Shown here: in pieces, positions 6,502-28,015 of the stretch | Layout: every line of letters begins with the position of its first letter | Position numbering within the stretch: the stretch's first letter is position 1 | DNA from: a virus | Virus record (IMG/VR): IMGVR_UViG_3300020470_005127 | Span: 1-28,015 of that record | Reading direction: 5' to 3' (one strand) | DNA length: 28,015 bases | Translations under genes and position numbers: made by a program | The notes under the pieces: generated by a model | Database searches by the model: none | Told to the model about the DNA's origin: nothing | The model's input: only the letters and a program-made list of their open reading frames with translations

Positions 6502-6510
6502 AATATTCCC

Positions 6511-7839
6511 CTATGAATGAAAAAAATTCATTGAATAAGTTAACTTTCTCTGATACACCTCAGGATATCTACTGAATCTTATATGTGAACCTATCTCAGC
6601 ATTATTCCAATGTGCATATTTTGGACCCTTCAACAATCTGTAAAATAATTTAGGATTCAAAGAATAAGAAAAATGATTTCCACGATTATCTGTGTAATCA
6701 ATCACATCATAACCACTTTCATCACCAAAAATTTTCAACAATTTATTATTTGGTAAATCTATATATATGTCTATATCAGTAACAAAGGATAATTCTTTTC
6801 TCTTTTTATCATATCTTTTATACGCCTTTGGTACTAATTCCATAACATCATATAAAGATACATCATAATCATCATCATAGTCAAGCTTTTCCTTTGACAA
6901 AATGTTTTTTATATAATCATATCTCTCTTCAACATCATAATGTTGATATTCAGCTGAAACCTCTTCTGTTACTAAATCAAATGATTCCTTCGGATTCAAC
7001 AAAAAACCACCACTACCATAATGATTGGTAAAATATTCCAACGCATCAGGTAGTTCTGGTGTACATTTAAATTTTTCCAGCTCACCCATCGGACCACAAA
7101 GAGTATAAGTTCCGGCATATGGCATATAATGTTTGGGTTTTAATATATCCAAAAATCCCATTCCCCAATCTAAAAATTTTTGTCTTTTAATTTCCCCATA
7201 CTTATTTATCTTATCATCATCGGAATAATCAATCCAACATTGTGGATAAGAACCAGCTCCAGTGTATCCAACCAATAATAAATCTATATCACCAAATTTG
7301 CTTTTAACATCTGTAATTGTTTTTTCAGTTAATGGAAATTGACAATCATTTATTTGAATTATTTTTTTATCACCAGTAGTTAAAACTGAAAATGTATCTA
7401 TACCAACTGACTTATCTAATGGTGTCATCTTACCACAACCAAAAAATTTAAAACACTCTTTCGGATCACAACCATCAGCAGCATAAACATAAAGTTCAAA
7501 ACCATCTGATAATTTAAAACTATCTCCATGTTCCATCTCTATTACATTTTTACCCATTCTTTCCAAATTCATCTTTACAAATTTGTTATCCCAATTATGT
7601 ATCAAAATAGGAATATCATTTGATATCATTTTAAGAGTCTCTTCATGACAATGGTCTGGGTGTATATGTGAAATATGTATATAATCAACATCATCAAAAC
7701 TTTTCATATCAATGTCCAACTCTGGATAAGATGTCCAAGATCCATAATAAGCCTTACCAACTAACCAGGGGTCAAACAATATTTTAGTACCATTGTGTTC
7801 AACCATTGTAGCTGTATTATTATAATAATTTAAGTTCAT
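6511..7839 (-). CDS. Metallo-beta-lactamase-fold protein, CMP-sialate-hydroxylase-like
   Basis: The 442-aa protein starts with an MBL fold. The metal motif is S57-H58-I59-H60-P61-D62-H63, with an UlaG-like beginning (MVEHNGTKILFDPWL). From memory, the second half (PKHYMPYAGTYTLCGPMG, and the C-terminal AEIGSHIRFSRYPEVY) recalls the non-Rieske part of CMP-N-acetylneuraminate hydroxylase; no Rieske Cys/His pair is present here. The bacterial relatives I recall sit in surface-polysaccharide clusters. Hydrolysis or oxidation of a nucleotide sugar or nonulosonic acid is possible but inferred. ATG at 7839 has AGAGG close upstream and overlaps the preceding glycosyltransferase gene by 20 bases. It is followed by the PhyH oxygenase, which might be a partner. 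Confidence 0.72.
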   Translation of the reverse strand: MNLNYYNNTATMVEHNGTKILFDPWLVGKAYYGSWTSYPELDIDMKSFDDVDYIHISHIHPDHCHEETLKMISNDIPILIHNWDNKFVKMNLERMGKNVIEMEHGDSFKLSDGFELYVYAADGCDPKECFKFFGCGKMTPLDKSVGIDTFSVLTTGDKKIIQINDCQFPLTEKTITDVKSKFGDIDLLLVGYTGAGSYPQCWIDYSDDDKINKYGEIKRQKFLDWGMGFLDILKPKHYMPYAGTYTLCGPMGELEKFKCTPELPDALEYFTNHYGSGGFLLNPKESFDLVTEEVSAEYQHYDVEERYDYIKNILSKEKLDYDDDYDVSLYDVMELVPKAYKRYDKKRKELSFVTDIDIYIDLPNNKLLKIFGDESGYDVIDYTDNRGNHFSYSLNPKLFYRLLKGPKYAHWNNAEIGSHIRFSRYPEVYQRKLTYSMNFFHS

Positions 7840-9058
7840 TTTCCTCTAAGTATGTAACTATGCGATTGGAAGCCATACCATCATTATAATCATCAAATAA
7901 TTTTAATAATTCTGAGTAATCTTTTTTTGACTCATCAGTCAAAAATTTCAAATCATAATCATAATTGTATGTACCTTTATTAATTATATCCTTTACTCTC
8001 TCATTGTCCTTTTTAAATAATTCTATTCTATCAAAATCAACTAAATTCTTAAATTCATCTATCGTTTCTAATTCATGAACTCTCATCCAAAATTTAGCAG
8101 AACCATCTCCCGCCCCAACAGAATCCTCTTCTAAATAAACATTTACATCATTTCCCCTATCCAAATAAGTACAATGATTATTTATGTTAACTACTTTTTT
8201 ATTCATAAGTAACGGTGGATACATAACCGAACCAATAACTCCTATATGTATATCACATATCGAATACATAGAAAACAAATCAAAATGGTCTCTAATAACA
8301 TTAACATTCTTCACTCTAAAATCAGGCAGAAAATCGTTCATCCACATAGAATTAAATGGTTCACCTGGAAATGGTTTATAATGTATTTGATAATCGTCAG
8401 TTATTTTATCAGATAAATTTTCTAGCAATTCAAATGCTATATTTCTATCCATATTTATCAATCCATAAAATAAAATTTGTTTCTTATTTTTATCTATACC
8501 ATACTTCTCATAAACTTCATTATTTACACCACCCAATATATTATTATCATAACAAGGGTTGCCAACAACTATAGATTTATCGAAACCATCAAAATCAACC
8601 AACTTTTTTCTATTCTCCAAACAAAAATCACTATGGTCAAAAAATAAATCAATATCACTTTGTGGATATTTTGTTCTTGATATTGCTTCCAATCTAGATT
8701 CAATCACATTAGCTATTTGAGTATTAACTTCAACTAAAATTATTTTTGTATTAAATTTCTCTTTAAACTCTCTCAATACGCTTTGTTCAGGATCCCACCT
8801 TTCTCTATGCACAATCAAATATTGTGGTTTAAATGGTAGTGGTATATTAAGCGTATCTGATATCAACTCTCCTTTAAAATCATATTCTGTTCCACTAGAA
8901 TCATACATATATTTTTCCATTTCACTTTTCGGATAAGCTGTGAGATTATTTGGATTATATAAAAAAAATGATTCATGCCCTCTTTTTAATAATTCAACAT
9001 GTATTGGACTTAAATATGCAATTCCTTTGGAATCTGATGAAAATAATAGAATACGCAT
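7820..9058 (-). CDS. Putative GT-B glycosyltransferase or glycerophosphotransferase-like
   Basis: This 412-aa protein has two Rossmann-like halves. The N-terminal half opens with MRILLFSSDSKGIAYLSPIHVELLKRGHE, the first strand, loop and helix of a GT-B fold. The C-terminal half begins near QILFYGLINMDRN, followed by IHYKPFPGE and CDIHIGVIGSVMYPPLL, which resemble the donor-binding strands in CDP-glycerol glycerophosphotransferase and related GT-B enzymes. No signal peptide or membrane segment is seen. The ATG at 9058 follows the methyltransferase stop by one base. Donor and acceptor cannot be inferred. Confidence 0.68.
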   Translation of the reverse strand: MRILLFSSDSKGIAYLSPIHVELLKRGHESFFLYNPNNLTAYPKSEMEKYMYDSSGTEYDFKGELISDTLNIPLPFKPQYLIVHRERWDPEQSVLREFKEKFNTKIILVEVNTQIANVIESRLEAISRTKYPQSDIDLFFDHSDFCLENRKKLVDFDGFDKSIVVGNPCYDNNILGGVNNEVYEKYGIDKNKKQILFYGLINMDRNIAFELLENLSDKITDDYQIHYKPFPGEPFNSMWMNDFLPDFRVKNVNVIRDHFDLFSMYSICDIHIGVIGSVMYPPLLMNKKVVNINNHCTYLDRGNDVNVYLEEDSVGAGDGSAKFWMRVHELETIDEFKNLVDFDRIELFKKDNERVKDIINKGTYNYDYDLKFLTDESKKDYSELLKLFDDYNDGMASNRIVTYLEENELKLL

Positions 9059-9059
9059 A

Positions 9060-9596
9060 TTAAACTTTTACAGCCAACACTCCCAAATTTTTTATGGGTG
9101 TTCCCCAATACTGTGGTTCTAACTCTGGATAAAATTCATCAGTTAAATCATACTGCCATTCTCCAGCGTCAAATGTATAAGCATCAAATCCCAAAGCTTT
9201 AAAGTCTTTAGCCAAATCAACATCTGTCCACATATTCTGATGTGCCATAAGTGGATTCCAAGCTACATAATCAGCAGGTGGAAATAATGTTTTCTTCATA
9301 GACCTAAATGGTAACTTACCATCAATCCATAATTTAATCACATATCCACCATCCGTATGTATAACTTTAATACTACCACCTTCTTTTAATTTCCTTTGCA
9401 TATCCAATAAAAATTGTTTATACTTTGGTATAGGCACATGTTCCAATGTATGTTCAAGAAAAAATTCATCAACAACACCATCCTCTTCTATGAACCCATC
9501 TAAATCTAATATATCATGATTTACATCACAATCATCCTCTAAATTCACATGAATATATTCTGTACCTCTTCCTCTACCACCTAAATTATATTTCAT
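9060..9596 (-). CDS. Predicted SAM-dependent methyltransferase (COG4627-like)
   Basis: The 178-aa product resembles compact class I methyltransferases found in LPS and phage clusters. It begins [25 protein letters not shown], a degenerate glycine-rich SAM-binding loop followed by the acidic strand end, then [14 protein letters not shown] (about 42-55), the hallmark motif of this family, and [16 protein letters not shown]. The usual G-x-G-x-x-P loop is altered to GGRGRG. It overlaps gmd by ATGA. It may methylate a sugar or lipid-linked intermediate; the substrate is unknown. Confidence 0.72.
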
Positions 9597-10552
9597 GATA
9601 ATAATCCTATATCATTTTCTACCATTCGACTTATCATTTCTTCAAATGATGTTTTTGGTGTCCATCCTAATTCAACTCTGGCTTTCGTTGAATCACCACA
9701 CAAAACATCCACCTCAGCAGGCCTCATATATCGTGGATCCTGTTTTACATAGTGACTCCAATCTCCAACACCAACACAATTAAAAGCTGCATCTAAGAAA
9801 TCTCGTATTGAATGTTCTACTCCAGTCGCAATCACATAATCATCTGGCTTATCTTGTTGTAACATCAACCACATACATTCTACATAATCTGGTGAATATC
9901 CCCAATCTCTTTTTGAATCTAAATTACCTAATGTTATATGATCCTGTAATCCCAAATGGATACGAGCGACACCATCAGTTATTTTACGAGTTACAAATTC
10001 TTTACCACGTCTCTCTGATTCATGATTAAATAAAATACCACTTACATTAAACATATCATAAGACTCTCTGTAGTTCTTTGTCATCCAATGAGCATATAGT
10101 TTAGCAACTCCATAAGGTGAACGAGGATAGAAAGGTGTGTTCTCATTTGCTGGATTCTCTACCATCTTACCAAACATTTCAGATGTTGACGCTTGGTAAT
10201 ATTTCACATCTTTACCATACTCTCTGATTGCCTCTAACATTCTTAATGCACCCATTCCACTAACATCGCTTGTTTGCTCTGGTGTGTTCCAACTCTCCCC
10301 AACAAATGATTGTGCTCCTAAGTTGTAAACCTCATGTGGATTTGACTCCCTCAATACTCTGACCAATGAATTCTGATCTGTTAAATCACCATTAACGAAA
10401 GTTATCTTACCTTCAAGATGACCTGTATTAGTTCTATTTTTTGTTGATGAACGCCTCTCCATACCATAGACTTCATATCCCTTTTCCAATAGTAAATCAG
10501 CAAGATAACTTCCATCCATACCATTTACACCCGTAATTAATGCTCTCTTCAT
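9593..10552 (-). CDS. gmd: GDP-mannose 4,6-dehydratase
   Basis: This 319-aa enzyme should convert GDP-D-mannose to GDP-4-dehydro-6-deoxy-D-mannose, the precursor of fucose, rhamnose, perosamine and colitose. It starts with the NADP motif [11 protein letters not shown] (7-17), has [12 protein letters not shown] (77-88), STSEMFG (122-128) and the catalytic Tyr-Lys in Y147GVAK151, and then [20 protein letters not shown], all specific for this family rather than for other sugar dehydratases. It is somewhat shorter than E. coli Gmd (373 aa), mostly at the termini. It forms a TAATG overlap with the preceding glycosyltransferase and an ATGA overlap with the following methyltransferase. No GDP-fucose synthase with a full-length match was seen; the RmlD-like reductase or RfbH-like dehydrase may take the product. 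Confidence 0.94.
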
Positions 10553-11337
10553 TATAAAAATCTCCTTGCAATTCTATTAAATGTTGTATCATTACTCATT
10601 ATCTCTTTAACTGATAAATCCTTTAAGTAAGGATCCCAAGATATAGATTCCCACACATGGTGGCAATAAGCACCATCCAATTGTATATCTTGTTCAAACA
10701 TCAACTTAATACCAACTTGACTAGCAGTAGGTTCGTTGGAATGATAGAGTGGATAATGAAAACTACTATATGGTTCTATATGTAAAAGTTCTGGATATTG
10801 CTTTGATAATATAAATGGCATTTGAACTGCATGTTCAGCCCAATATTGGTCTCTACCTTTAGACCTATGTGATTGATAACTCATCAACCAATGTTTAAGA
10901 AACTCACTATCCTTTTCTGCCAAAATAACACCATCACAAAGCCCCTCAACATTTCCATCAGGTGTACCTTGTATTCCCAAAACACATTTGTTTTCCAACA
11001 AATCAGTAAATGGTTTCACCGATATCGTATCAACATCCATATAGATACCACCCTCTTCTAAAAGAACTTGTAACCTTATCACACCAGTTTGATGTGCTAC
11101 ATGTAAAAGTGGATTTCCAAAAATCTCTTTTGGTGGTTCTATCTTTACAAGCTCCAAATCATTTTCTATTTTTTCAAACCATTCACCACTCGGCTTATGT
11201 TTATAATAAAGATAAGCTTTCTCTGGCTTATTTAATTCTATAGCCGATTTGACTGAAAGGTAATGGCACAACTTCCACGGTTTACCACCAAAATCTTCAG
11301 ACAAACCAAAAACAAAATGCATTTTATTTGGTATCAT
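10552..11337 (-). CDS. GT32-type glycosyltransferase with DXD motif
   Basis: The 261-aa product matches the family whose members begin [10 protein letters not shown] and carry a DXD within [13 protein letters not shown] (93-104; D101 and D103 bind the metal and nucleotide sugar). The surrounding pattern, with [17 protein letters not shown] before the DXD and HHVWESISW near the end, is typical of the alpha-1,4-glycosyltransferase/OCH1-type proteins of capsule clusters. There is no membrane anchor. ATG at 11337 lies inside the end of the FkbM gene (14-base overlap). The transferred sugar is unknown. Confidence 0.87.
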
Positions 11338-12178
11338 AATTAACCTCTAATTTATCTGGCACACAAATCAAATTATGACCAGAAAGTAATTCATCATTTT
11401 CCATTAAGACCACTTCATCCCCCAAATTTTCTATGTCTAATTTATTAGCAACTTCATCATAAGCTGTATAACCAATATTATTAATGACATTCATCATTTC
11501 TCGCATTTCTATAGAGTTCAGTCCAGTATAGATTTCCGTTATTATTACAGGAGAATCTCTATATATTATATCAACAAGAGTCTTTAAAATGTCTTTATCA
11601 TGTCCCTCTGTATCAATTTTTATTAAAGAAACTTCATTGTCAATTAAACTATTTTTTTCTAAAAAACTATCTAAATTTACACCCCAAACATCTATAGGTA
11701 TCTGATGACCAGTAACACCTACACCAAAATCAGTTCTCTCAGCATAACCACCATTACACAACCCATCATCTGAATAATGAAATCTCAATGGACCTTCATC
11801 ATCAGATACAGCATAATTAAATGGAATTATGTTTGGATGTAATTCTGCATTTTTTTCTAAAACCTCATAAGTAGCAGGATTACATTCAAATGAAATAACT
11901 TTATCAGCAAATAAAGAATAAGCCACAGACATATTACCACTCTGTGCACCAATATCAATAACTGTAGAATTTGGTTTTATGATTTTAGAAATATTATTTA
12001 ATATCTCATCCGTAAATAAAGAAATTAATTCCCATTCACCTTGCATTGGATGTAACCATCTATGATACTTAAAAGTTATTCCATTTCTTTCCAACTCAAC
12101 AATTTCCGTATCATAATGATTATTGGTTTCCTTTAAAACATTTAAGAATTCATCCCTATAACCTTTCATGTCTTGCAT
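11324..12178 (-). CDS. FkbM-family methyltransferase
   Basis: This 284-aa protein has the FkbM class I methyltransferase core: STVIDIGAQSGNMS (71-84) as the SAM loop, VISFECNPATYEVLEKN with the acidic residue E98 that would hold the SAM ribose, and later IKIDTEGHDKDILK, the family signature. These enzymes O-methylate sugars or small molecules. The N-terminal 60 residues are helical and precede the fold. The gene starts at ATG 12178, one base after the upstream glycosyltransferase stop. It fits methylation of a glycan residue; the acceptor is not known. Confidence 0.88.
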   Translation of the reverse strand: MQDMKGYRDEFLNVLKETNNHYDTEIVELERNGITFKYHRWLHPMQGEWELISLFTDEILNNISKIIKPNSTVIDIGAQSGNMSVAYSLFADKVISFECNPATYEVLEKNAELHPNIIPFNYAVSDDEGPLRFHYSDDGLCNGGYAERTDFGVGVTGHQIPIDVWGVNLDSFLEKNSLIDNEVSLIKIDTEGHDKDILKTLVDIIYRDSPVIITEIYTGLNSIEMREMMNVINNIGYTAYDEVANKLDIENLGDEVVLMENDELLSGHNLICVPDKLEVNYDTK

Positions 12179-12179
12179 A

Positions 12180-12815
12180 TTAAATTAACCCACTTATCTC
12201 TTCATTATAAAATTTATTCTGTTCTACTTGTTTATCTATCGTCTTTGGGTGTAGTATACAAAATGGTTTATCTGTTGGTAAGGTTGAATAGGTTTTATAT
12301 CCAGTTATCATCTCATGTACTTTCTTTTCCCAACGGATGTTAGGTCTATTTTTAAACAACCTACCTTGCCAATCAGGAAAGTTTATCCAACCATTTTCAT
12401 TCAATCTGTATCCATACATCCTACAATGTTGTTCTGTTATTCCATCCACAGTATTTATTCTTGGCACCCAAAATAAATCAATAGTTGGATTACCATCAAT
12501 AATTTCATGAACATTCTGAATCATCCACCTACTTATCATCTCATCAGCATCAAGATTAAAACTATACTCACCATTACACATACCTTTCAAATGATTCTTT
12601 TGTGAAGCAAAATCTTTCAATAGACTTCTTTGTTCAAATACTATATCATGTGCTGATACATAGAAATCTAATATCTGTTTTGTCTTTTCATTATCTGAAA
12701 AATCATCTAATATGACTATTTCATCATTGGGATTTTTCCACTTTACTAAGAACTTTAATAACTTCTCTAAAGTCTTATCTTCATTGTGTGTTAATATAGA
12801 ATAACTTATTTTCAT
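12180..12815 (-). CDS. Family 2 glycosyltransferase
   Basis: The 211-aa protein starts ISYSILTHNED (3-13) and has ILDDFSDN (35-42), both standard for GT2 enzymes, then FNLDADEM (86-93), where D89 and D91 form the DXD-like site. WEKKVHEMI (about 168-176) matches the acceptor-side motif of the WaaE/KdtX-like group that adds heptose or glucose to LPS cores. It is shorter than the usual 250 residues. Its ATG overlaps the preceding stop (TAATG). The function is likely addition of a sugar to a lipid-linked or LPS acceptor. Confidence 0.88.
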   Translation of the reverse strand: MKISYSILTHNEDKTLEKLLKFLVKWKNPNDEIVILDDFSDNEKTKQILDFYVSAHDIVFEQRSLLKDFASQKNHLKGMCNGEYSFNLDADEMISRWMIQNVHEIIDGNPTIDLFWVPRINTVDGITEQHCRMYGYRLNENGWINFPDWQGRLFKNRPNIRWEKKVHEMITGYKTYSTLPTDKPFCILHPKTIDKQVEQNKFYNEEISGLI

Positions 12816-13294
12816 TAATCAAAAGGACTTCCACCTGGTTTGTGTATGTATTCTTCTTGTATCGAAATAACTTTCATAGACGATAACTTTGGTGTCTTAT
12901 AACTACGATAGGATCTAACAAATACATTATCAGCTTTAATTATGTCATGATAAAATCTATCATTGTCCATATCTGTTGGTTCTTTTGGGTGTGAAATTTT
13001 TATCCTAAAATAATCTTCTTTCAATCTGACTAAATTTTCCATTCCAGTCTCACCCTTTCTAAAATCGATAAAATAAAATAATCTTTTAAGTTTTGATGGT
13101 GGTAAATAATTTAAATTCAAACCTTCTATAATTCTTTTCTTTGGATCACGATGTAAAAAAAGAAGAATGGGTTTTGGATCAGTAACATTAGGTACAGAAT
13201 AATTAAATGTCAGTATCATTCCAGGCAACAACCTTCCCAATGTCATTGTCTGTTGTTTAATTATTATTTTACTATTGTTGTATCTCGTTGCCAC
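12815..13294 (-). CDS. Conserved phage protein of unknown function
   Basis: This 159-aa protein is not an obvious enzyme. It has an N-terminal strand-rich part (PGMILTFNYSVPNVTDPKPI), followed by FLHRDPKKRIIEGLNLNYLPP, a pattern I associate with uncharacterised proteins of T4-like marine phages. No cysteine pairs, signal peptide or membrane segments are seen. The start is GTG, preceded by TGGAAA about six bases upstream; the next methionine is residue 17, so the exact start is uncertain. It overlaps the zinc-ribbon gene by 23 bases and ends in a TAATG with the glycosyltransferase. Two phage-type genes here interrupt the sugar cluster. Confidence 0.65.
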   Translation of the reverse strand: MATRYNNSKIIIKQQTMTLGRLLPGMILTFNYSVPNVTDPKPILLFLHRDPKKRIIEGLNLNYLPPSKLKRLFYFIDFRKGETGMENLVRLKEDYFRIKISHPKEPTDMDNDRFYHDIIKADNVFVRSYRSYKTPKLSSMKVISIQEEYIHKPGGSPFD

Positions 13295-13673
13295 TATGAC
13301 TTTCCATTGTTCTTACTATATTAAAAGCATCACTAAAATGTGGCATCTCAACCTTTGTAGACTCCGTTCCCAACTTAGTTATAATATGCCATATCAATTT
13401 CCCATCCTTAACATCAGGCGTTATATAATAATTTTCACTTGTAAAAACTCCCGGCAACCAATTCCTACCACCTATATTTTTACAAATAGATTTGAATTTA
13501 TCATCTAAATCATCAGTTAATTTATCTTTATAATCACTACTTGACGCATACCCACAATGGACACACTGCATACTTTGTCTTTCATCACCAAGTAAAATTA
13601 AAGTGTCTTCTTCATTCCCCTCTTCCACACAGCAAGGACACTTTACTCTCAATCTCATATCATCGAAACTCAT
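13272..13673 (-). CDS. Phage zinc-ribbon protein of unknown function
   Basis: The 133-aa protein begins with a likely zinc ribbon: C12-x-C14-C15 (KCPCC) and C37-x2-C40 (CVHCGY), separated by a strand. The remaining 90 residues contain a predicted mixed fold (NWLPGVFTSENYYITPDV, LIWHIITKL). Such small ribbon proteins are common in T4-like phages and may bind nucleic acid, but no specific role is known. It starts at ATG 13673, overlapping the preceding glycosyltransferase stop (ATGA). Confidence 0.65.
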   Translation of the reverse strand: MSFDDMRLRVKCPCCVEEGNEEDTLILLGDERQSMQCVHCGYASSSDYKDKLTDDLDDKFKSICKNIGGRNWLPGVFTSENYYITPDVKDGKLIWHIITKLGTESTKVEMPHFSDAFNIVRTMESHSGNEIQQ

Positions 13674-15034
13674 ATCTTCTTCAACTTTGGTAAATTAAGT
13701 TTTTTAGGTGTAGATGATTCATTAGAATCCCCCACCTTTTTCAATTTAGGTAATTTCAAAGAAACCTGCTTTGGTACATTTGCAATTATATCATCAATAA
13801 TTTTACTAAAATCATTAGCCATCTTTTCTAAAGAAAAATCTTTTCTATTCTTTTTACCAAGCCTCTTAGCTTTTTTTAAAATACTACTATGATTTTTATG
13901 TAAAAGTCTTAATTTTCTTTTTACATCATCTTCATTAACATCATACCACTTAGATTGTTCAACTACTATTGGATGCCAAACATTCGATTTTGGAACTTCT
14001 TTTAATTTACCCTGTATTATCAATGCCTCAGATGGATTTAAGAAATCCATGTGACCACTCCAATTTGGAGCAATTACAGGTAAGTCACAACAACTAGCCT
14101 CTAACATCGGCCTTCCAAATCCTTCACCATGTGTACAAGTTAAGAAAGCCTTTACCTTAGAATGATTATATAACATAGCCATTTGTTTAATTGTCAAATC
14201 CCCATGTATCAAATATACATTAGGAATTTGAAAATCTCCAAATTGTTCCATAATACCTTTTATTTTTTTTGTTGTCTCATGTTTATCCATAATTGAAAAA
14301 CCAGAACCATTCGTTTTTAACAACAATGCGGGCATCTTATCTTTTGGAACATTTGTAAATGCTTCCAAAAATGTTTTTATCATCAAAGAGATATTCTTTC
14401 TATCCTCTCCATAACCACCCTTTCCCCACAGACCAACATGTAAATAAACAAAATTTTCTTTTTTTAATAATTCATCCAAATCATACACAAATTTTGATTT
14501 CACATCCTTCAAATCAAATGGTTTATAAACATCAATATCAACACCTTCCCCCAATACAGAAATTGGTTTAGTTAATTTATGCTCTCCCAATTTTACTTTT
14601 TGACCATTCCTATCATCTGTCTTATCATAAACAGTTCCCGTAAAAGTTTTAGCAGTAAACTTTGATGGTACTATATTTAAATTCATTTTATTACACCCCT
14701 CAATGAATTCAGGAGAAACTATATCAGTCTCAACACCAGCAGTTATACCTAAATTATATTTACCAACTTGAGCAAATTCATTAGGTATTCTTATATCAAT
14801 ATAAATATCTGGTTGAGAATCTAAATTGGTTTCTACTGATAAAACATCCAATAACTTTTTATGCCTTGGTACTTCTTTATCTAAATGATTTCTAGGTGTT
14901 TCCCCCCACTTTGTATCAATACACTTAATATCCAAATCCTCTCTATCCATAATCGAATAAAACAGAGAGCGAGCATGATCACCATAACCACTTCTTGTAT
15001 TAAATGGTGCTGTCATAACAACTTTTGTTTTCAT
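13670..15034 (-). CDS. GT4-type glycosyltransferase with repeated C-terminal tail
   Basis: From the ATG at 15034 the product is 454 aa. It is a GT-B retaining glycosyltransferase: KVVMTAPFNTRSGYGDHARSL at the N-terminus is the acceptor-side loop, and CTHGEGFGRPMLEA holds the E-x7-E donor site of family GT4. A lysine-rich helical stretch follows. The last 30 residues contain a short imperfect duplication, LKLPKLKKV and LNLPKLKKI, separated by a serine-rich linker; this is not part of the enzyme fold. The longer frame opening at 15070 would overlap the previous gene by 40 bases and has no good ribosome site; the chosen ATG overlaps the stop (ATGA) and has GGAG five bases upstream. It pairs with the next GT4 enzyme upstream. 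Confidence 0.85.
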   Translation of the reverse strand: MKTKVVMTAPFNTRSGYGDHARSLFYSIMDREDLDIKCIDTKWGETPRNHLDKEVPRHKKLLDVLSVETNLDSQPDIYIDIRIPNEFAQVGKYNLGITAGVETDIVSPEFIEGCNKMNLNIVPSKFTAKTFTGTVYDKTDDRNGQKVKLGEHKLTKPISVLGEGVDIDVYKPFDLKDVKSKFVYDLDELLKKENFVYLHVGLWGKGGYGEDRKNISLMIKTFLEAFTNVPKDKMPALLLKTNGSGFSIMDKHETTKKIKGIMEQFGDFQIPNVYLIHGDLTIKQMAMLYNHSKVKAFLTCTHGEGFGRPMLEASCCDLPVIAPNWSGHMDFLNPSEALIIQGKLKEVPKSNVWHPIVVEQSKWYDVNEDDVKRKLRLLHKNHSSILKKAKRLGKKNRKDFSLEKMANDFSKIIDDIIANVPKQVSLKLPKLKKVGDSNESSTPKKLNLPKLKKI

Positions 15035-16401
15035 ATCTTCTCCATATAATATCTTTGCCTCGGTTCCCAATTATCAAAAGCGCCATCCATAGAATCTATA
15101 AAATTTTGTCCCATAGCTTTAGCTGTCATTTGATTTTCTTCACAAAATTTCTTACCTAAACCACCAAGTCTTTTTCTCTCATCTCTACCCATATCATAAA
15201 ACTCACGAAGAGCAATGGCAGCATCTTCAGGCTCACACCTATCATCCCAAATATATGGTGTCGGTGGTGAACCTTGTAATGAACGACTTGTCGGCCATAC
15301 AGGTTTTACCCATTCTCCGTGTTCTTTATAACGGCCTTTATGATTACTACCAAGTTCAACATAATCATCTGGTGTCAATAAGTTTCCATCATCATCTCTA
15401 AATCCACATTGGTCTTGTAATCCACCTGTAACATTAACAATAATCGGTGTTCCAACTGTAAGTGCTTCAGCACTACCCAATCCGAACCCTTCATTACTCG
15501 CTAAATTAATATAAACATCCGCTGAATTAAAAACTAAATTCATATCCCCATCTTCAAAAGAATTATTATGTATATGGTGTGTGAAACAAACATCATATTC
15601 TGGCATTAAATGCTTCATCAGTCTTGGTAAATCAGTTCCATTTTCATCGCTTGGTGTACAATGAAATATCAATACACATTCTTCCCTTTGTTCAGGAGTT
15701 AACTCATCCATAAAGTATTTATAAGCCATAGCCACATCACCAGGTTGCTTTCTTCTGATGTTTCTGTTACTATAAAGAATTCTAAATTTTTTATCTGTTA
15801 ACCCAAATTTATCATTAAACTCCAACAGAGAATTATCATCATCATCCACTTTTTTATATCTTCTATCTGAAATACCATGTGGAACATAAGTGGTTTGCCA
15901 ATCTTCATAACCATGAGGTTTTAATAATCTTTTATTTATACCATAAGTTTGTTTTGATATTGACATCAATAAATCAGAACTTCTGTAGTAATTCGTATTG
16001 TATTGTGGATCTGGCAAATCATCCCAAATATTATAATAGAATATTGGAATATCCCTACGAATTTCTGCCTCTATATTATAAAGCCAAGTCCAAAACCTTG
16101 GATCTGTATAATGTAATATAGCATCTGGTTTTTCTCTTTCCAATATAACTCTAACTATATCAGGATTACCATAACCACTCGTAGGATATATTGTTAACTT
16201 AGCATCCTTAACACCTGAAATTTCAGCTATAGCTTTATCCATATTAACAACATTTCCTTCTTCAGGATGTTTTATTGCACCAGCTAATTGTACCCAATCA
16301 TATTGGTGAAGTGTCTCAACAACAATATCCTTAGATACAGTAGCTATTCCACTATGCATTCTTAAATCATCAGACATCAATAATATCTTCTTCTTAGCCA
16401 T
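15031..16401 (-). CDS. GT4-type glycosyltransferase
   Basis: This 456-aa protein has a GT-B fold. The first strand and loop read KKILLMSDDLRMHSGIATVS (3-22), and the donor half has ILYSNRNIRRKQPGD, then SNEGFGLGSAEAL, where the E-x7-E pair marks GT4 retaining enzymes; GTPIIVNVTGGLQDQCG follows. The tail ends with a region common to phage-encoded versions of this enzyme. No signal peptide or membrane helix. ATG at 16401 has GAGG about five bases upstream, so it could be an independent translation start after the short gap. It is the first gene of the long sugar block and is coupled by ATGA to a second GT4 enzyme. Confidence 0.87.
   Translation of the reverse strand: MAKKKILLMSDDLRMHSGIATVSKDIVVETLHQYDWVQLAGAIKHPEEGNVVNMDKAIAEISGVKDAKLTIYPTSGYGNPDIVRVILEREKPDAILHYTDPRFWTWLYNIEAEIRRDIPIFYYNIWDDLPDPQYNTNYYRSSDLLMSISKQTYGINKRLLKPHGYEDWQTTYVPHGISDRRYKKVDDDDNSLLEFNDKFGLTDKKFRILYSNRNIRRKQPGDVAMAYKYFMDELTPEQREECVLIFHCTPSDENGTDLPRLMKHLMPEYDVCFTHHIHNNSFEDGDMNLVFNSADVYINLASNEGFGLGSAEALTVGTPIIVNVTGGLQDQCGFRDDDGNLLTPDDYVELGSNHKGRYKEHGEWVKPVWPTSRSLQGSPPTPYIWDDRCEPEDAAIALREFYDMGRDERKRLGGLGKKFCEENQMTAKAMGQNFIDSMDGAFDNWEPRQRYYMEKI
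15040..15043 (-). promoter_or_regulatory. Ribosome-binding site deciding the start at 15034
   Basis: GGAG on the minus strand is five bases before the ATG at 15034, inside the last codons of the upstream glycosyltransferase. It supports this ATG, in an ATGA stop-start overlap, over the longer reading frame that begins at 15070. Confidence 0.7.
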
Positions 16402-20275: not shown

Positions 20276-20623
20276 TTATTTTATGAAAAGATGTGATAAT
20301 TGAATTGCTATAATTACTACAGATAAAAATAAACTAATCAATGTTCTGTTATCAGGTGTCTCTCCTAATATCATCCAAGTAAGTATACCAAAAACAAGAG
20401 TAGCCATACCAAATCCTATTGGTCTGACATACCAATAGTTTCCAAAGTATTCATAATACCACTTAGTCCCATAGTAAAAACAAAAACTTATTGGTACACC
20501 ACCAAGAGCAATCCAATAAATACTCTTTGCCCATTCATATTTGAATTGCCCCTGCATATGAAACCAAGCTATGATGTGTCCAATAAAGGATACACCTAAT
20601 GCTAATAACAATTTATTCAACAA
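20276..20623 (-). CDS. Small multi-span membrane protein (EmrE-like size)
   Basis: This 115-aa protein is highly hydrophobic with about four membrane segments: LLLALGVSFIGHIIAWFHM (5-23), YWIALGGVPISFCFYYGTKW, GFGMATLVFGILTWMILGE and LISLFLSVVIIAIQLSHLF. Size and spacing recall small multidrug-resistance or DMT-type transporters, but no charged residue sits in the first helix where EmrE has its glutamate. The start is TTG at 20623 (another TTG is three bases later) with AGGAG upstream; no ATG precedes residue 23. It overlaps the epimerase by 11 bases. The transport function is uncertain. Confidence 0.72.
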   Translation of the reverse strand: MLNKLLLALGVSFIGHIIAWFHMQGQFKYEWAKSIYWIALGGVPISFCFYYGTKWYYEYFGNYWYVRPIGFGMATLVFGILTWMILGETPDNRTLISLFLSVVIIAIQLSHLFIK

Positions 20624-21491
20624 CTAACTCCTCTTTTATATATTTTATTATATCACCTTCTGGATTCCAATCTAATATATCTTTAGCTTTTGTATCTGTA
20701 CACAAAGTCTCTCTCATTTCTCCTGGAGTAGCATCAATATACTTAGCTGTCCACAATGCATCAAAAGCAACTGCTATATCATTGATTGAATAATTTTTAC
20801 CTGTTCCCAATTCAAATATTTCACCTGAATATCTCATATCAACAGCACCATGCATTGCTTCCATACACTTAACCATACCATCCACTATATCTCTCACATC
20901 CACAAAATCTCTTCTTTGTTCTCCATCACCCGTAATTGTCAATGGCTCTCCATCATTATATTGCCTTTCAAATATACCCAACACATTACAATACGCACCC
21001 TCAGTTGCTTGGTATGGACCATAAGCATTATAAAATCTACAGATACAACTCGGTATATTAAATAACTCACTATACATTTTAACTATCTCTTCAGCCTGCC
21101 ATTTTGTAAATGTATATGGATTGATATACTTATCCCCATGTACAGAAGAAGTTCCAGCATACACCACAGGTATTTTGTTTCGTCTCGCATCTTCCATTAT
21201 ATTAACAGTGGAATATAGATTAGATTTAAATGTTTGTTCGGGATCGTCAAATGATGGTTGAATACGGGATAGTGCGGCTAAATGAAATATAACATCTGGC
21301 TTATCTTGAAAAAACGAATAATACTTTACTTCTGATAGATCAACATCAAAGTATTGACAACCTTCCACTTCATTTTCCTTCTTACCAGTAGAATAGTTAT
21401 CTAAACTAACAACTCTATGTCCATCTTTTAATAATCTCTTTATTAGATTAGTACCAATAAACCCTGCACCACCTGTAACTAAACACTTCAT
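20613..21491 (-). CDS. NAD-dependent nucleotide-sugar epimerase/dehydratase
   Basis: From the ATG at 21491 the protein has 292 residues and resembles UDP-glucose/UDP-GlcNAc 4-epimerases and related dehydratases. The NAD site is VTGGAGFIGTNL (5-16). D31-N32 follow the second strand, HLAALSRIQPSF (70-81) is the usual cofactor strand and loop, and the catalytic pair is Y126-T-F-T-K130, after SSV (115-117). RFYNAYGPYQ and the downstream RRDFVDVRDIVDGM complete the family pattern. A TTG 12 bases upstream opens a longer frame, but the GGAG six bases before this ATG decides the start. It sits apart from the main sugar block, among accessory genes. Confidence 0.88.
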   Translation of the reverse strand: MKCLVTGGAGFIGTNLIKRLLKDGHRVVSLDNYSTGKKENEVEGCQYFDVDLSEVKYYSFFQDKPDVIFHLAALSRIQPSFDDPEQTFKSNLYSTVNIMEDARRNKIPVVYAGTSSVHGDKYINPYTFTKWQAEEIVKMYSELFNIPSCICRFYNAYGPYQATEGAYCNVLGIFERQYNDGEPLTITGDGEQRRDFVDVRDIVDGMVKCMEAMHGAVDMRYSGEIFELGTGKNYSINDIAVAFDALWTAKYIDATPGEMRETLCTDTKAKDILDWNPEGDIIKYIKEELVVE

Positions 21492-21493
21492 TT

Positions 21494-21754
21494 TTATCTC
21501 CAAGGTAACATAGTCATGCCAATCATATTAAGTAGATACTCTATTACAACTACACCTATTAAACCACCACCCAATTGCCATGCCCACCATTTCCAACCTT
21601 CTAAACTATCAGCCCATTGACGAGTCTTAGAGTTTCTAGCCTTATCATATAGACCACTACTCTCACCTACTTTACTAGCCCAATAGTTTGGGTCTGTCCA
21701 TTCTTTTAATTTTATTAACGGCCAACATATTGTCCGTAGTATTTTCATTATCAT
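21494..21754 (-). CDS. Small single-span membrane protein, unknown function
   Basis: The 86-aa protein has a charged, tryptophan-rich first half (LKEWTDPNYW, TRQWADSLEGWKWWAW) and one likely membrane helix, LGGGLIGVVVIEYLLNMIGM (61-80). Similar small proteins accompany phage replication genes, but I recognise no family. ATG at 21754 overlaps the clamp-loader stop (ATGA); a second ATG two codons later is possible. A role at the membrane during replication or lysis is conceivable but unproven. Confidence 0.6.
   Translation of the reverse strand: MIMKILRTICWPLIKLKEWTDPNYWASKVGESSGLYDKARNSKTRQWADSLEGWKWWAWQLGGGLIGVVVIEYLLNMIGMTMLPWR
21498..21501 (-). promoter_or_regulatory. Ribosome-binding site deciding the start at 21491
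   Basis: GGAG on the minus strand lies six bases before the ATG at 21491. The upstream in-frame TTG at 21503 would place this site inside the coding region, so the ATG is preferred. Confidence 0.7.
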
Positions 21755-22170: not shown

Positions 22171-22396
22171 CTAAATCACCCAATGGTAGAATTTCACCAC
22201 AATTCCCACAATTAAATACTTGTACGGGTGCGATAACTTCCTGACCAGTTGGTGACATAATTGCCGATATCTTTTTTACCACATAACCTTGTATAAAAAT
22301 TTTATTATTACATTCATTACAAGTCATAGTTTCAGCATCACTCAAATCAACTTGAACTTTTTGTTTAGGAAGTGGTTTCATTGGTTTTGTACTCAT
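22157..22396 (-). CDS. Small zinc-ribbon protein in the clamp-loader operon
   Basis: The 79-aa protein has a Lys/Pro-rich N-terminal 15 residues and two CxxC knuckles, C26-x2-C29 (CNEC) and C63-x2-C66 (CGNC), bracketing a strand-rich middle (KISAIMSPTGQEVIAPVQVFN). This is a zinc ribbon. Similar proteins occur in T4-like marine phages, with no known function. The start ATG overlaps the gp44-like stop (TAATG) and the end overlaps the gp62-like start, so it is wedged between the two clamp-loader subunits and translationally coupled to both. Confidence 0.72.
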   Translation of the reverse strand: MSTKPMKPLPKQKVQVDLSDAETMTCNECNNKIFIQGYVVKKISAIMSPTGQEVIAPVQVFNCGNCGEILPLGDLDELI

Positions 22397-23304
22397 TATA
22401 TTTTCCTTATCATATTTGACACAGTAGCAATAAAATTAATCTCTTTATCTGGTACTAAAACATCTTGATATAATCCATTTGAAATCTCTGCTATAGCTTC
22501 AGCAACCCTATCACCAGCAAAGTTATCCACTTCATCATACATCAATCTAAATAGTTCTGTAAAATCTGTAAAATTATTATTAGCTACCATTTTTCTTATT
22601 GTTCTTATATCATCACGATTCTTCAAAGACTCAATGAATAACAACTTGAACTCATTGTTTAAAAGTCCTTCCTTATCAACTCTAAGCTCTCCATCAATAC
22701 ATTGTCTTTGCAAATCATTAATAACCTTTCGTAAATCTGGATAACCAGCAGTAACTATCAATGCTAAATCATCCAAATTAAAATTGACACCCTCTTCTTC
22801 TAAAATATTTTTAGAATGTAATGCAACTTCTTTCTTACTCGGTGGTATTATCTTATATGTTTGACATCTACTTTGTAAAGGATCGATAATCTTTTCAACA
22901 TAATTACAAGTCAATATAAACCGACAATGTGAAGAAAATGTTTCCATCAGATTCCTCAACGCTGGTTGAGCAGAATTTGGATTTAGATAATCAGCCTCAT
23001 CCAATATCACTATCTTCATTGGTTTAAAACCAACCGAAGAAGCGAATGTCTTTAACTTATCTCTAACCAAATCTATGTTTCGTTCATCCGAAGCATTAAT
23101 ATAGAGATAGTCACACTCTACATTATTGGTTATTATCTTCGCAAGAGTTGTCTTCCCACCACCAGCCTTTCCATAAAGGAGCAGATGTGGTACATTCTGC
23201 TCCTCTATAAATCTAGCAACTTTAGTTTTTAAACTCTCATTACCTACATAAGTTGATAGGTCTTTTGGGCGATATTTTTCAACCCATAATCCATGTGAAC
23301 TCAT
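22396..23304 (-). CDS. Clamp-loader large subunit, gp44-like AAA+ ATPase
   Basis: The 302-aa product should be the ATPase that loads the sliding clamp at primer-template junctions. It has WVEKYRPKDLSTYVGNE (7-23), Walker A in LLLYGKAGGGKTTLAKI (41-57), Walker B/DEAD at 102-105 (ILDEADYLN), sensor 1 FILTCNYVEKI, and the SRC motif (145-147, QSRCQ) that acts in trans on the neighbouring subunit's ATP. T4 gp44 is 319 aa. The gene begins one base after the clamp stop and is coupled to the zinc-ribbon gene. Confidence 0.95.
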   Translation of the reverse strand: MSSHGLWVEKYRPKDLSTYVGNESLKTKVARFIEEQNVPHLLLYGKAGGGKTTLAKIITNNVECDYLYINASDERNIDLVRDKLKTFASSVGFKPMKIVILDEADYLNPNSAQPALRNLMETFSSHCRFILTCNYVEKIIDPLQSRCQTYKIIPPSKKEVALHSKNILEEEGVNFNLDDLALIVTAGYPDLRKVINDLQRQCIDGELRVDKEGLLNNEFKLLFIESLKNRDDIRTIRKMVANNNFTDFTELFRLMYDEVDNFAGDRVAEAIAEISNGLYQDVLVPDKEINFIATVSNMIRKI

Positions 23305-24078: not shown

Positions 24079-26613
24079 CTAAAAAAATCTTTCTACTGTA
24101 TTTTCTTTATCTACAGGCATATCCCAACTCAGAGCATCATAAAACATCTTTATCTTCTTTGTTAATGCCCTATCAAATAATTTATCCCTATCTATATATT
24201 TCTCTATAAAATCCATCACTTCTTCAGGATCGTCATAACCTTTATATGCAATAGCATCCAATTGATATGGATTGTTCTTTAAATACACCCATTTAATTTT
24301 ACTATGGTCTCTAATAGGTTCTAAGTGATTAGCTTTAAAATGTTTTAATAAATCATTATAAGAAACCGAAGCCTTTACATGTACTGGAGCTCCAGATTTC
24401 ATTGTGGTAAACATATCCTTACCCTTACCTTTTTGTGAATATTTCTTAATTCCCTTTACTCCACTTGGTAGTGATATATCAACAATATCATTGGAATCTA
24501 AACTCTTTTTAAACTTCAATATAAACTCATCTATCTTATCTTTCTCAATGTTATGTAAAATAGCCTTTAATACATTGGTCATAAACTTTTGAAATGCTGG
24601 TGGGAATGAACTCCTTACAATATCCAAACCCTTAACATCAAGTTTCTCTACTTCCAAACCACCATCATTAATAATCCATTGACCATATCTCTTTTTAGTA
24701 ACCCAAAAGGCAGACTTAGCAATAACTTCTTGCTTAATATCAAATCTATGTTCACCCCTTACATTTAAAAACTTCTGAGCAAAATAATTATAAGACTTAT
24801 TAATATAACTCTGTACCTCATCAGCAATTTCTAATATCTGTTTAGTCATAAACTTATCATCACTCAAATCTGCATTAGGAAATCTCTGTTTAACCAATGG
24901 TATGGCAGAATAGAAAACCGAATCAGTATCAGTATAGATACAATAATCCTCTTTAGTTTTTAAACTCTGATTGTAATAATAATTGGCAATCTTCTCTGTG
25001 AATTGGATTAACTTCACACCTGTAGTAGTGGTAGCCTCAGCATTATCTATGTCATAAAACCTAAAGACTGTCAAACCCAATACCCCATAGAAACTATTTA
25101 AGAGAATCTTCTGAACATATTGTCTTCTATCGAAATAACCATGTAACTCATCATTACCCTCTTTACCATACTTCTTTGCCAAACCTCTATACTCCACCCT
25201 TTCATTAAACCACTTCTCAAGTATTGCAGGTATGATACCTTTTTTATCCAAATGATACAATATCCCATTTGAAGATATAGACACCTCATTCTTACTAAAG
25301 AAATCTTTCAACTCACCAGTAGAAAATCTACGAATTATCTTTTCACCCTTTCTAACTGTATATGTCTTTTCCTCTTCTTTTAAAAATTCTTCAGCATCCC
25401 AACCTTCAATTTTACCTATCTTTGTTTCGGGTGATATATTGAGTGTCATAATAGTGGATGGATACATAGAAGTTAAATCTAAATCAAATACCCACTCATA
25501 CCTACCTGGAGTTGGATCTTTCACATAAGCACCACTAAATCTACCAGCAGAATCATCGTATTTAGCATTATGTCTTTTACTTGGAGCAACTAAACCAAGA
25601 CTTCTCAAATAAGTCAACATAGCACCTTCAATGTATCGAGAACTAAAGTAAACTTCTTCATAAGGTATCCTACCCATATGTGATACAGCCTTAGCCAAAT
25701 CAATTAACTTTAACTTCTTTTCCAATGCTACAATAATCTTAACATCAACTAAATTATATTCAACAAACTTTTCAATATCATTTTCTAATAATTGGTCTAA
25801 TGTACCTTCATACTCAACCTTACCCATACCAACTTCTATCTGACCTATATAATCCAATCGATAACTAGACCTATTGACATAAGTGAATTTCTTATACAAC
25901 TCCAAATAATCCAACGAACTAACACCAGCTATTCTATATCTCTTTTTGTTCTGATTATACACAACTTTACCTATTGGTGAAAGAGCATTAGCTACTTCCA
26001 AACCCATAACTTGAGCTAATCTATTATACAAATAAGGTATATCGAAATTATCACTATTCCAACCCGTAACTATAGTTGGTTTAAAATCCATCCAATACTT
26101 CATCAACGCCCGTAACAATTCATATTCCGAATCAAAAATAAATACATTTTTTCGTGAAGTGGATATTTTTTTATCATTACTCCTGAAGTTTTGGTTGTTA
26201 CCTAATACATAAACTTTATATTCTTCATCTATATTGTTATAAAGTGCGACAGAAGTGATTTTATTCTTAGCTTCTTCTGGCATTGGGAAACCATCTGTAA
26301 CTTCAACCTCAATATCAAAATACAACTCACGGTGATTTTTGGATGGTTCATCAGAATCAGGATATCTATCAATTAAAATACGAGTATCTAATGGTATATC
26401 AGATTCAAATACTCTACCACTCGTAAAATCCTCTTCTGTCCAATAATTAACCTTTTTTAACTTATCTCCATAGATGGAACGATATTGCCCACCACCATCT
26501 TTAACATAAGCATAATTTTTATATATAAAATTCTGATAACCAGCTACATCATCCCAAAGATGAACTTCTACTTGATTATTCGCTCGTTTTTCAGACCAAA
26601 TATTCTGATACAT
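24079..26613 (-). CDS. Family B DNA polymerase, T4 gp43-like
   Basis: The 844-aa enzyme is a proofreading replicative polymerase (T4 gp43: 898 aa). Exonuclease motifs: YFDIEVEV (D100, E102), GWNSDNFDIPYLYNR (D191) and EYNLVDV (D290). Polymerase motifs: DLDLTSMYPS (A, D379), KILLNSFYGVLG (B, 502-513), YTDTDSVFY (C, D562 and D564) and KKRYG (640-644). All catalytic residues are present. The C-terminal VERFF resembles the aromatic clamp-binding tail of T4-like polymerases. The ATG at 26613 has no close Shine-Dalgarno; GGGG lies 14 bases away inside a small hairpin. A promoter and the preceding gene's terminator lie directly upstream. Confidence 0.97.
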   Translation of the reverse strand: MYQNIWSEKRANNQVEVHLWDDVAGYQNFIYKNYAYVKDGGGQYRSIYGDKLKKVNYWTEEDFTSGRVFESDIPLDTRILIDRYPDSDEPSKNHRELYFDIEVEVTDGFPMPEEAKNKITSVALYNNIDEEYKVYVLGNNQNFRSNDKKISTSRKNVFIFDSEYELLRALMKYWMDFKPTIVTGWNSDNFDIPYLYNRLAQVMGLEVANALSPIGKVVYNQNKKRYRIAGVSSLDYLELYKKFTYVNRSSYRLDYIGQIEVGMGKVEYEGTLDQLLENDIEKFVEYNLVDVKIIVALEKKLKLIDLAKAVSHMGRIPYEEVYFSSRYIEGAMLTYLRSLGLVAPSKRHNAKYDDSAGRFSGAYVKDPTPGRYEWVFDLDLTSMYPSTIMTLNISPETKIGKIEGWDAEEFLKEEEKTYTVRKGEKIIRRFSTGELKDFFSKNEVSISSNGILYHLDKKGIIPAILEKWFNERVEYRGLAKKYGKEGNDELHGYFDRRQYVQKILLNSFYGVLGLTVFRFYDIDNAEATTTTGVKLIQFTEKIANYYYNQSLKTKEDYCIYTDTDSVFYSAIPLVKQRFPNADLSDDKFMTKQILEIADEVQSYINKSYNYFAQKFLNVRGEHRFDIKQEVIAKSAFWVTKKRYGQWIINDGGLEVEKLDVKGLDIVRSSFPPAFQKFMTNVLKAILHNIEKDKIDEFILKFKKSLDSNDIVDISLPSGVKGIKKYSQKGKGKDMFTTMKSGAPVHVKASVSYNDLLKHFKANHLEPIRDHSKIKWVYLKNNPYQLDAIAYKGYDDPEEVMDFIEKYIDRDKLFDRALTKKIKMFYDALSWDMPVDKENTVERFF

Positions 26614-26622
26614 TTAGATTAT

Positions 26623-26636
26623 AAAATCCCCATTTT
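26623..26636 (-). promoter_or_regulatory. Small hairpin in the polymerase leader
   Basis: The predicted leader (minus strand) contains AAAAT-GGGG-ATTTT, a perfect five-pair A/U stem with a GGGG loop, between the promoter and the polymerase ATG. The only G-rich ribosome-site candidate is in the loop. T4 gp43 represses its own mRNA by binding a leader hairpin, so this is a possible but thermodynamically weak operator. Confidence 0.25.
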
Positions 26637-26646
26637 CGATATGTAA

Positions 26647-26675
26647 ATTTAACCATAAAACCATATAGATGTCAA
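26647..26675 (-). promoter_or_regulatory. Sigma70-like promoter for the DNA polymerase gene
   Basis: On the minus strand TTGACA (26675-26670), 17-base spacer, TTAAAT (26652-26647). Transcription would start near 26640 and give a leader of about 27 bases before the ATG at 26613. It lies immediately downstream of the receptor gene's terminator. Confidence 0.7.
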
Positions 26676-26681
26676 GCTTTT

Positions 26682-26717
26682 TTTTAAAATAAAATGGGGG
26701 CTATATTTCAAGCCCCC
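26682..26717 (-). terminator. Intrinsic terminator of the TonB-dependent receptor gene
   Basis: Minus-strand hairpin with stem GGGGGCT (26717-26711) and AGCCCCC (26702-26696), an eight-base loop, then ATTTTATTTT as the U-rich tract. It lies 12 bases after the receptor stop codon. The plus strand has no U-tract after the hairpin, so it acts in one direction only. Confidence 0.85.
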
Positions 26718-26728
26718 AAATTACCATT

Positions 26729-28015
26729 TTAGAAATTGACCGATAGGCCAACATTGAAGTGTCTTGGTGTACCCAAGAATACTTCGGCATTATGAGCAGC
26801 GTGAACTTTGTCACCATACCCATTGTACTTACTGTTATCAACAGCATCTTGTACATAAACATCATCAAGCGCATTAAATAAATGTGCAGATAATGTCATA
26901 TCATAACCAGCGATTTGTGGTAGTTTGTATGATAGATGTAAATCAAGTTTGGAATAACCTGGGGCTTTCCATACTTGAGCTCTATCTTCTTCACCATCAA
27001 CTTCACGAGCATCAGGACTCCAATCAGCGTAATTGTCATCATACATTTTGTATAGTCCTTGGATACTTAGTCCTTCAATTGGTTTCAATGTCAAACCACC
27101 AACATAAGCAGTTTGTGGCATATCTCCAACTTTCAACTCATTAAGAGCATAAGTATATTGAGTAGTCATTTGTCCTACGACCTGACCTTCTTCATTATAC
27201 TCCATTTCTTGATAATCACCTATTGCGTCACCATCAAAGAACCAATCACCTTTGCTGAAAACAAAGTCAACATCCACCATTTCATGTAATGCAACTTTTG
27301 CTTCAACTTCAACACCAGTATGACTTTGGTTCACACCCTTTAGATAAATAATATCAGTATCACCTGAATCACCTTGACCTGTTTCTACAGATTTTGTAAG
27401 GTTTCTATCTTTCCATTGAGTGTTATAGAAACTACCTTTAAGATTAACCAAATCACTTGCGTATTTTCCACCAACTTCAAAGCTTTGAAACTTCTCATTG
27501 TCTGGATTAGAAGCGACTGTACCATCATAGGCAATTACATTATCCAAAATCGGTGGTTTTTCAACATATCCAACATTAGCAAATGCTGACATTCTATCAT
27601 CAAGATTGAATACACCACCACCTTTCACTTGAAAAGTAGTAATGTTATCAGCAACAACTTTAGAAGCATCAACTGCAAAATGGTCTAAGTAAGAGTATCC
27701 AATAGTAGATATTCCACCCATACCATAAAGGTTGAACTTCTGTATGTCGTATTTACCTTGTAGGAAAGCACCAAACCAATCAACCGTAGTTTCGTTGTGA
27801 TAAGCGATAATATCACCTAACCCAACTTTCTTACCATCAGGTGCGTTATCATCAGCAAAGTCTACATAGTAGTCTCCACCAAGTAAATCACGAACCTCAC
27901 GGGCGTGTTCGATACCAGCAGTTCTCCAATCAATACCGACTTGTACCTCTAAATCATCATTTACATCATAATTTAGTTTGGAAATCAATCCATAGGTATT
28001 TTGTCTGTTAATTGA
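26729..28015 (-). CDS. TonB-dependent outer-membrane receptor, 5' end beyond window
   Basis: The frame is open from the right edge to TAA at 26729, 428 residues of beta-barrel. No true start is in the window; the TTG at 27988 is internal because codons upstream (NRQNTYGLISKL) continue the barrel. The part seen alternates amphipathic strands with acidic loops. GIDWRTAGIEHAREVRDLLGG, VFNLDDRMSAFANVGYVEKPP and the C-terminal FNVGLSVNF (ending in aromatic F, the BAM recognition strand) are typical. The SAHLFNALDDVYVQ segment is the common near-C-terminal strand. The plug and signal peptide would lie outside. Local GC (24-26 per 60 bases in two lines sampled) is above that of neighbouring phage genes (13-17), suggesting recent acquisition from a bacterium. 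Substrate unknown. Confidence 0.9.
   Translation of the reverse strand, partial: SINRQNTYGLISKLNYDVNDDLEVQVGIDWRTAGIEHAREVRDLLGGDYYVDFADDNAPDGKKVGLGDIIAYHNETTVDWFGAFLQGKYDIQKFNLYGMGGISTIGYSYLDHFAVDASKVVADNITTFQVKGGGVFNLDDRMSAFANVGYVEKPPILDNVIAYDGTVASNPDNEKFQSFEVGGKYASDLVNLKGSFYNTQWKDRNLTKSVETGQGDSGDTDIIYLKGVNQSHTGVEVEAKVALHEMVDVDFVFSKGDWFFDGDAIGDYQEMEYNEEGQVVGQMTTQYTYALNELKVGDMPQTAYVGGLTLKPIEGLSIQGLYKMYDDNYADWSPDAREVDGEEDRAQVWKAPGYSKLDLHLSYKLPQIAGYDMTLSAHLFNALDDVYVQDAVDNSKYNGYGDKVHAAHNAEVFLGTPRHFNVGLSVNF

Follow-up and report, generated by a model that had tools for sequence, protein, structure and literature searches.

The window analyzed here, a 28,015-bp linear virus record, carries at its end an open reading frame next to T4-like replication genes (Table 1). 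Its product matches the TonB-dependent barrel domain (Pfam PF00593, E 5.6e-15, 56.6 bits against a cut-off of 27 bits), and a search of its own record gives E 3e-17. The original prediction had placed an outer-membrane receptor barrel directly before the phage DNA polymerase gene on the same strand; the domain match bears out the first part of this claim and the layout the second, both genes lying on one strand with the receptor 115 bp upstream of polB. The 428 residues make up the C-terminal end of a TonB-dependent receptor 910 residues long, whose gene is cut by the contig end. The complete gene is present on a longer viral contig, L002 (IMGVR_UViG_3300020411_003736; 130,380 bp), which shares 99.67% identity with the window across 11,286 bp. 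The complete protein has a Plug domain (PF07715, E 1.3e-12, 48.6 bits against a cut-off of 23.9) in addition to the PF00593 beta-barrel, the combination that identifies a TonB-dependent outer-membrane receptor. The N-terminus is hydrophobic (judged by eye), and a near-invariant stretch preceding the plug, EVLASRADExTPVA, is a candidate TonB box in a family for which none is experimentally known. The terminal Phe is seen in the receptor alignment (36 sequences); the bacterial L117 ends in Ile. Against the SusC/RagA family (TIGR04056) the receptor scores 56.9 bits, below the curated cut-off of 368.25, and no named cobalamin receptor family of the BtuB type is among its Pfam or NCBIfam matches. 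An AlphaFold model, which is poor (pLDDT 57.5), identifies a TonB-dependent transporter by Foldseek and nothing finer.

Table 1. Features of the receptor locus in the window and in related viral contigs (coordinates without a prefix are those of the window)
Feature	Location	Strand	Description
TonB-dependent receptor gene, 3' part (codons 483-910)	26729..28015	-	ORF, 428 aa, open at window end
Intrinsic-terminator-like hairpin	26695..26718	-	8 pairs, 6 G-C, T-rich tail; directly 3' of receptor stop codon
Two overlapping sigma-70-like promoter matches	26618..26675	-	TTGACA-18-TAAATT, TTTACA-18-TATAAT; between terminator and polB
Family B DNA polymerase (gp43-like)	24079..26613	-	next gene after receptor; phrog_262 E 1.5e-193
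AAA+ clamp loader (gp44-like)	22396..23304	-	AAA E 1.2e-17, Gp44_lid E 1e-4
Complete receptor gene	L002:8555-11287		910 aa: signal peptide-like start, CarboxypepD_reg, plug, beta-barrel, C-terminal Phe
Pseudoknot leader	L002:8491-8524		34 nt; ATG at 8555; ~1.5 kb past window end
RNR-polB slot content	L158		aroC and aroKB
RNR-polB slot content	L184		glnA
RNR-polB slot content	L150		DNA methylase
RNR-polB slot content	L162:3296-4498		trypsin-like protease with lipoprotein-like start and dockerin-domain protein, others
RNR-polB slot content	L130:5298-5936		protein with type IX secretion sorting tail (PF18962)

The hairpin that follows the receptor gene is the one terminator-like hairpin found, against 0.2 expected in shuffles, and its position between the genes makes separate transcription units for receptor and polymerase probable; the promoter matches before polB are weak, and their number is not above that in shuffles. 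Elsewhere in the window, a long run of sugar-nucleotide and glycan genes (4370-16401), including a GDP-mannose 4,6-dehydratase, a DegT aminotransferase, several glycosyltransferases and an FkbM methyltransferase, constitutes a phage-encoded surface-glycan cluster, with an additional NAD-dependent epimerase at 20613-21503.

As the window ends inside the receptor gene, a chimeric assembly has to be considered, as has host DNA wrongly binned as viral. The original prediction had named a chimeric join and a bacterial chromosome beyond position 28015 as the outcomes that would undo it, and had proposed extending the contig in search of phage genes on the far side. L002 does continue past the window end into phage genes: upstream of the receptor lie genes for an adenosylcobalamin (AdoCbl)-dependent ribonucleotide reductase (RNR; TIGR02505, 348.8 bits, above cut-off), a Mom-like protein, a gp41-type (DnaB-like) helicase, a 5'-3' exonuclease, UvsX and gp32, and the contig also encodes the T4 gp23 capsid protein. 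The Mom-like DNA modification protein (PF25680; L002:5631-6398) adjoins the RNR. Many independent contigs likewise have RNR on one side of the receptor and polB on the other, the leader of the gene is found in phages only, and its third-position GC content (GC3) is phage-like. Since the gene is complete in L002 and recurs in many independent viral contigs, both a chimera and a bacterial chromosome are excluded; an assembly artefact is refuted by these data, and we give that reading practically no weight.

A scan of viral contigs found 164 stretches that encode relatives of the receptor, the best 80 of which were fetched (77-100% identical). Most of the fetched copies sit between the B12-dependent RNR and polB, and nearly all that reach far enough have polB downstream, mostly at a distance of 53-123 bp. 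When polB rather than the receptor was used for the scan, 37 loci extended 1.5 kb or more upstream of polB, and 15 of these have the receptor; some of the 37 are the same contig as earlier loci. The interval is empty in five loci (L132, L141, L142, L171, L174), and in others it holds unrelated genes (Table 1), from which it follows that it behaves as a cargo slot. One occupant, in a phage whose polB is 85% identical to that of the window (L130), has a type IX secretion tail, in keeping with a Bacteroidota- or Marinimicrobia-like host. In four loci (L318:5119-6764, L319, L320, L322) the body of the receptor is deleted; its leader and the start MKNRNLIS persist, the latter as an N-terminal scar, along with a new gene of 483 aa.

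Where the receptor came from is indicated by its cellular relatives. A pattern scan of 84,980 species, which detects close relatives only, returned metagenome-assembled genomes (MAGs) of Ca. Neomarinimicrobiota (Marinimicrobia) and no others, and 97 of 245 Marinimicrobia genomes match at E <= 1e-150, with 69-70% identity over the full length for the best. In most of eight MAG loci the host receptor adjoins the same DnaG-like gene block (DnaG was read by eye), which marks it as chromosomal. By homology, the cellular relatives found are Marinimicrobia core receptors: they (e.g., L085, L086) align with the phage receptor over the full length at 66-70% identity for the nearest and share its domains and C-terminal end, but differ in being chromosomal and in having no pseudoknot leader. 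Adjoining the Marinimicrobia receptor is a conserved, secreted-looking protein with the motif VKYFxTxLxR and no Pfam match (L082:2913-3863, L088:11398-12915), which might hint at the receptor's substrate.

With wide sampling, the phage receptors form what is essentially one clade in the tree (99% SH-aLRT), next to one Marinimicrobia group. A first tree, in which L151 and L181 fell among bacteria, had indicated two independent acquisitions; this was withdrawn after the wider sampling, and a single phage clade is not rejected (AU p 0.09). The one MAG row inside the phage clade (L097:986-3736) comes from a small Marinimicrobia genome, where a 4.3-kb contig contains this receptor and, after it, the beginning of another; phage-to-host transfer or mis-binning may account for it. 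The original prediction had taken a raised GC content as a sign of transfer from a host and had proposed a search and a tree to name that host. The receptor is indeed higher in GC (0.387 versus 0.31-0.36), but its GC3 of 0.235 equals that of the other phage genes, so the bacterial origin is supported by homology and the tree and not by GC. A recent transfer judged by GC content was rejected for the same reason; the phage-like GC3 points to an old transfer, and we read the data as a single capture, long ago. The phage has a single tRNA, which was uninformative about the host. From the receptor itself, we infer that the host is probably a member of the Marinimicrobia.

Among phages, the receptor has a median pairwise identity of 81% despite a difference of 0.40 at four-fold sites, which suggests an old gene under purifying selection. 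The expectation that it would be more conserved than its neighbours holds against polB (median identity 56%) and fails against RNR (86%). Receptor and polB distances are only weakly correlated (0.19), which suggests exchange between phages of the receptor, of polB or of both. Identity among phages reaches 0.95 in the plug and 0.995 in the linker on the side of the TonB box, against 0.55 in the N-terminal domain.

Two functions had been put forward in the original prediction, a boost to nutrient uptake during infection and the swapping or masking of a receptor against superinfection, and it is the former that fits better. TonB-dependent receptors are common phage receptors, and a phage-borne copy could displace or mask the one used for adsorption, as the porin of phage PA-2 reportedly replaces that of its host. 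Foldseek matches include structures of FhuA with the phage T5 protein pb5 and with the exclusion lipoprotein Llp, although these match only through the shared fold, and the sugar-nucleotide and glycosyltransferase cluster of the window could remodel the cell surface. Equal conservation of loops and strands is what retention for transport would predict, whereas in a receptor modified to evade or mask adsorption the loops should have changed. On a topology that is approximate, given the poor model, phage and host copies are 0.61 identical in the putative external loops versus 0.63 in the strands, and the loops are not hypervariable among phages (0.83 versus 0.84); no more than 9 sites show a fixed difference between the phage and the host versions, and the slot otherwise holds metabolic and secreted-protein genes. 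As the loops diverge no faster than the strands, transport is favoured over disguise, and we regard superinfection exclusion as improbable; most likely, the phage receptor raises nutrient uptake. As for the nutrient, B12 uptake feeding the class II RNR was considered; the adjacent AdoCbl-dependent RNR is the only hint of cobalamin, which no family match accompanies, and it stays a hint since the RNR also occurs in phages that have no receptor and the slot cargo is unrelated.

Upstream of the phage start codons lies a conserved leader with the consensus ACAGG-CAGNN-GRCRCA-CCUGU-NNAAAAA-UGYGYC, in which stem P1 (ACAGG/CCUGU) interleaves with stem P2 (GACACA/UGUGUC) to form an H-type pseudoknot. 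Nearly all P2 variants pair (GACACA/UGUGUC, 68; GACGCA/UGCGUC, 23; GGCACA/UGUGCC, 16), and P1 varies as AUAGG/CCUAU and CCAGG/CCUGG, so that both stems show compensatory changes. Across 56 distinct pseudoknot sequences, 97.9% of cells are paired and both sides have changed in 27 cells, versus 6.0 when shuffled, with four pairs affected; the outermost P1 pair is lost in 12 of the 56. None of 500 shuffles reaches the covariation score, and sliding the partners abolishes the signal, with the caveat that the copies are related sequences, which exceed shuffles more easily than independent ones. The A-rich loop 3 is invariant and the CAG of loop 1 nearly so. As the element is short, its 90% identity between copies could partly reflect recent exchange among phages. 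The pseudoknot starts 58-73 nt, mostly 62-64, before the ATG and is followed by an A-rich, mostly unstructured linker and then a Shine-Dalgarno site. UUAA occurs in 56 of 89 distinct linkers versus 24 expected in shuffles. A small hairpin can form in 22 of the 89; in some (e.g., L021:8508-8536, L003:6990-7020) it is a short UUCAUUAAUGAA or UUCGUUAACGAA with a UUAA loop.

The pseudoknot accompanies the receptor closely. Every phage receptor copy whose 5' end is available carries it, and of the receptor-bearing phage loci scanned with a covariance model, many of which had gone into building that model, 52 of 52 have it, against 0 of 22 receptor-less polB loci, the L318 scar apart. In the receptor-deleted loci (L318, L319, L320, L322) the first P2 pair of the leftover leader is broken. 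All 114 leaders found by pattern lead into a receptor start, barring contig-end truncations and mis-picked starts; a second pattern scan returned receptor-linked copies and the L318-type scar, and a scan for other P2 variants returned none. In L002 it is the single pseudoknot of this geometry, and shuffles have none. No match to the exact pattern occurs in the 245 host genomes, host receptor leaders show no pseudoknot, and the covariance model gives weak matches in about 245 host genomes, none as a leader; its one strong match there (G123), the best, was rejected, as it lies inside an Mfd-like coding sequence. No Rfam 15 family matches the leader; the PreQ1-I riboswitch model (RF00522) does not match in L002 or L021, and its match in L181 scores 13 bits, where the gathering score is 39, and is offset from the pseudoknot. 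In the sequences searched, the pseudoknot is thus linked exclusively to the receptor gene.

The presence of a pseudoknot before the receptor in every copy examined suggests that the timing of receptor production is under phage control. The element sits just upstream of the ribosome footprint and leaves the Shine-Dalgarno site uncovered, so the gating mechanism is not evident from its position. It could be a riboswitch whose ligand is the nutrient taken up, or a metabolite related to it, which would tie receptor synthesis to nutrient state. The preQ1-I and SAM-II aptamers are small H-type pseudoknots of the same size class, and the invariant loop 3, the nearly invariant CAG and the restriction to a transporter gene would all suit such a sensor; the lack of any Rfam riboswitch match other than the offset L181 one and of an obvious overlap with the Shine-Dalgarno site argues against it, and we consider it possible but doubtful. 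Alternatively, the element could be a protein operator, on which gp32 or another RNA-binding protein nucleates and goes on to cover the ribosome-binding site. The phage encodes gp32, and the receptor leader is arranged like the T4 gene 32 operator (PMC535899, PMC3014915), in which a pseudoknot about 65 nt upstream of the ATG (starting at about 67 nt in PMC3014915) is followed by an unstructured, UUAA-containing linker. An operator of that type would call for a pseudoknot about 40-67 nt upstream and an unstructured, UUAA-rich linker, and here the pseudoknot starts mostly at about 62-64 nt and the linker is enriched in UUAA. The gene and the sequence are different, however, and at the geometries scanned no pseudoknot of this kind turned up ahead of gene 32 in these phages, which leaves gp32 as the trigger unsupported. 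L002 has only one such pseudoknot, UUAA is expected in A+T-rich leaders, and the linkers are related sequences. We regard a protein operator, too, as no better than a tentative reading. The signal may be a metabolite or another protein, or the effect may be a passive one on ribosome standby or mRNA stability.

Taken together, we think it fairly probable that T4-like phages of Marinimicrobia use a receptor derived from the host to boost uptake and have placed its translation under phage-specific control. Such phages would have taken a core TonB-dependent receptor from their host once, as cargo between RNR and polB, and strong purifying selection would have kept it. During infection, we infer, the receptor would reach the host outer membrane by export, insert there and raise uptake of the nutrient of the host version while dNTP synthesis and genome replication proceed. 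The phage would have added a control of its own, the 34-nt H-type pseudoknot in the mRNA leader, which together with the linker and the Shine-Dalgarno site would probably gate translation initiation through a small molecule or an RNA-binding protein. A further step, that the pseudoknot belongs to an undescribed, phage-specific class that senses a ligand or protein and switches on the captured nutrient receptor during infection, is one we advance with considerable reserve.

Phage-borne TonB-dependent receptors have already been reported (PMC9723777, PMC10504331). The SusC-like receptor of the marine megaphage Mar_Mega_1 and LR745206 is likewise phage-encoded and proposed to raise carbohydrate uptake, but it belongs to a different group of phages, the LR745206 match is confined to residues 77-293 at 28%, and the relevant passage of PMC9723777 mentions no RNA element. 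Pelagiphage Skadi, compared by description, also has a TonB-dependent receptor annotated on a marine phage; in contrast, that gene is flanked by tail tube and capsid genes and was taken as a pointer to the adsorption receptor (PMC10504331). Our search of open-licence papers found no report of the present receptor family in T4-like Marinimicrobia phages, nor of its RNA leader. Phage outer-membrane receptors have so far been reported singly, whereas the one described here is old, strongly conserved and widespread in marine viral contigs, is tied to an RNA control element of its own, and connects the uncultured Marinimicrobia with a group of T4-like phages. The 34-nt RNA can be tested in vitro in the absence of a phage or host culture. 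The receptor leader would add a second kind to the phage mRNA pseudoknots at translation starts and, if the proposed sensing is true, would amount to riboswitch-type control by a phage of an auxiliary transport gene.
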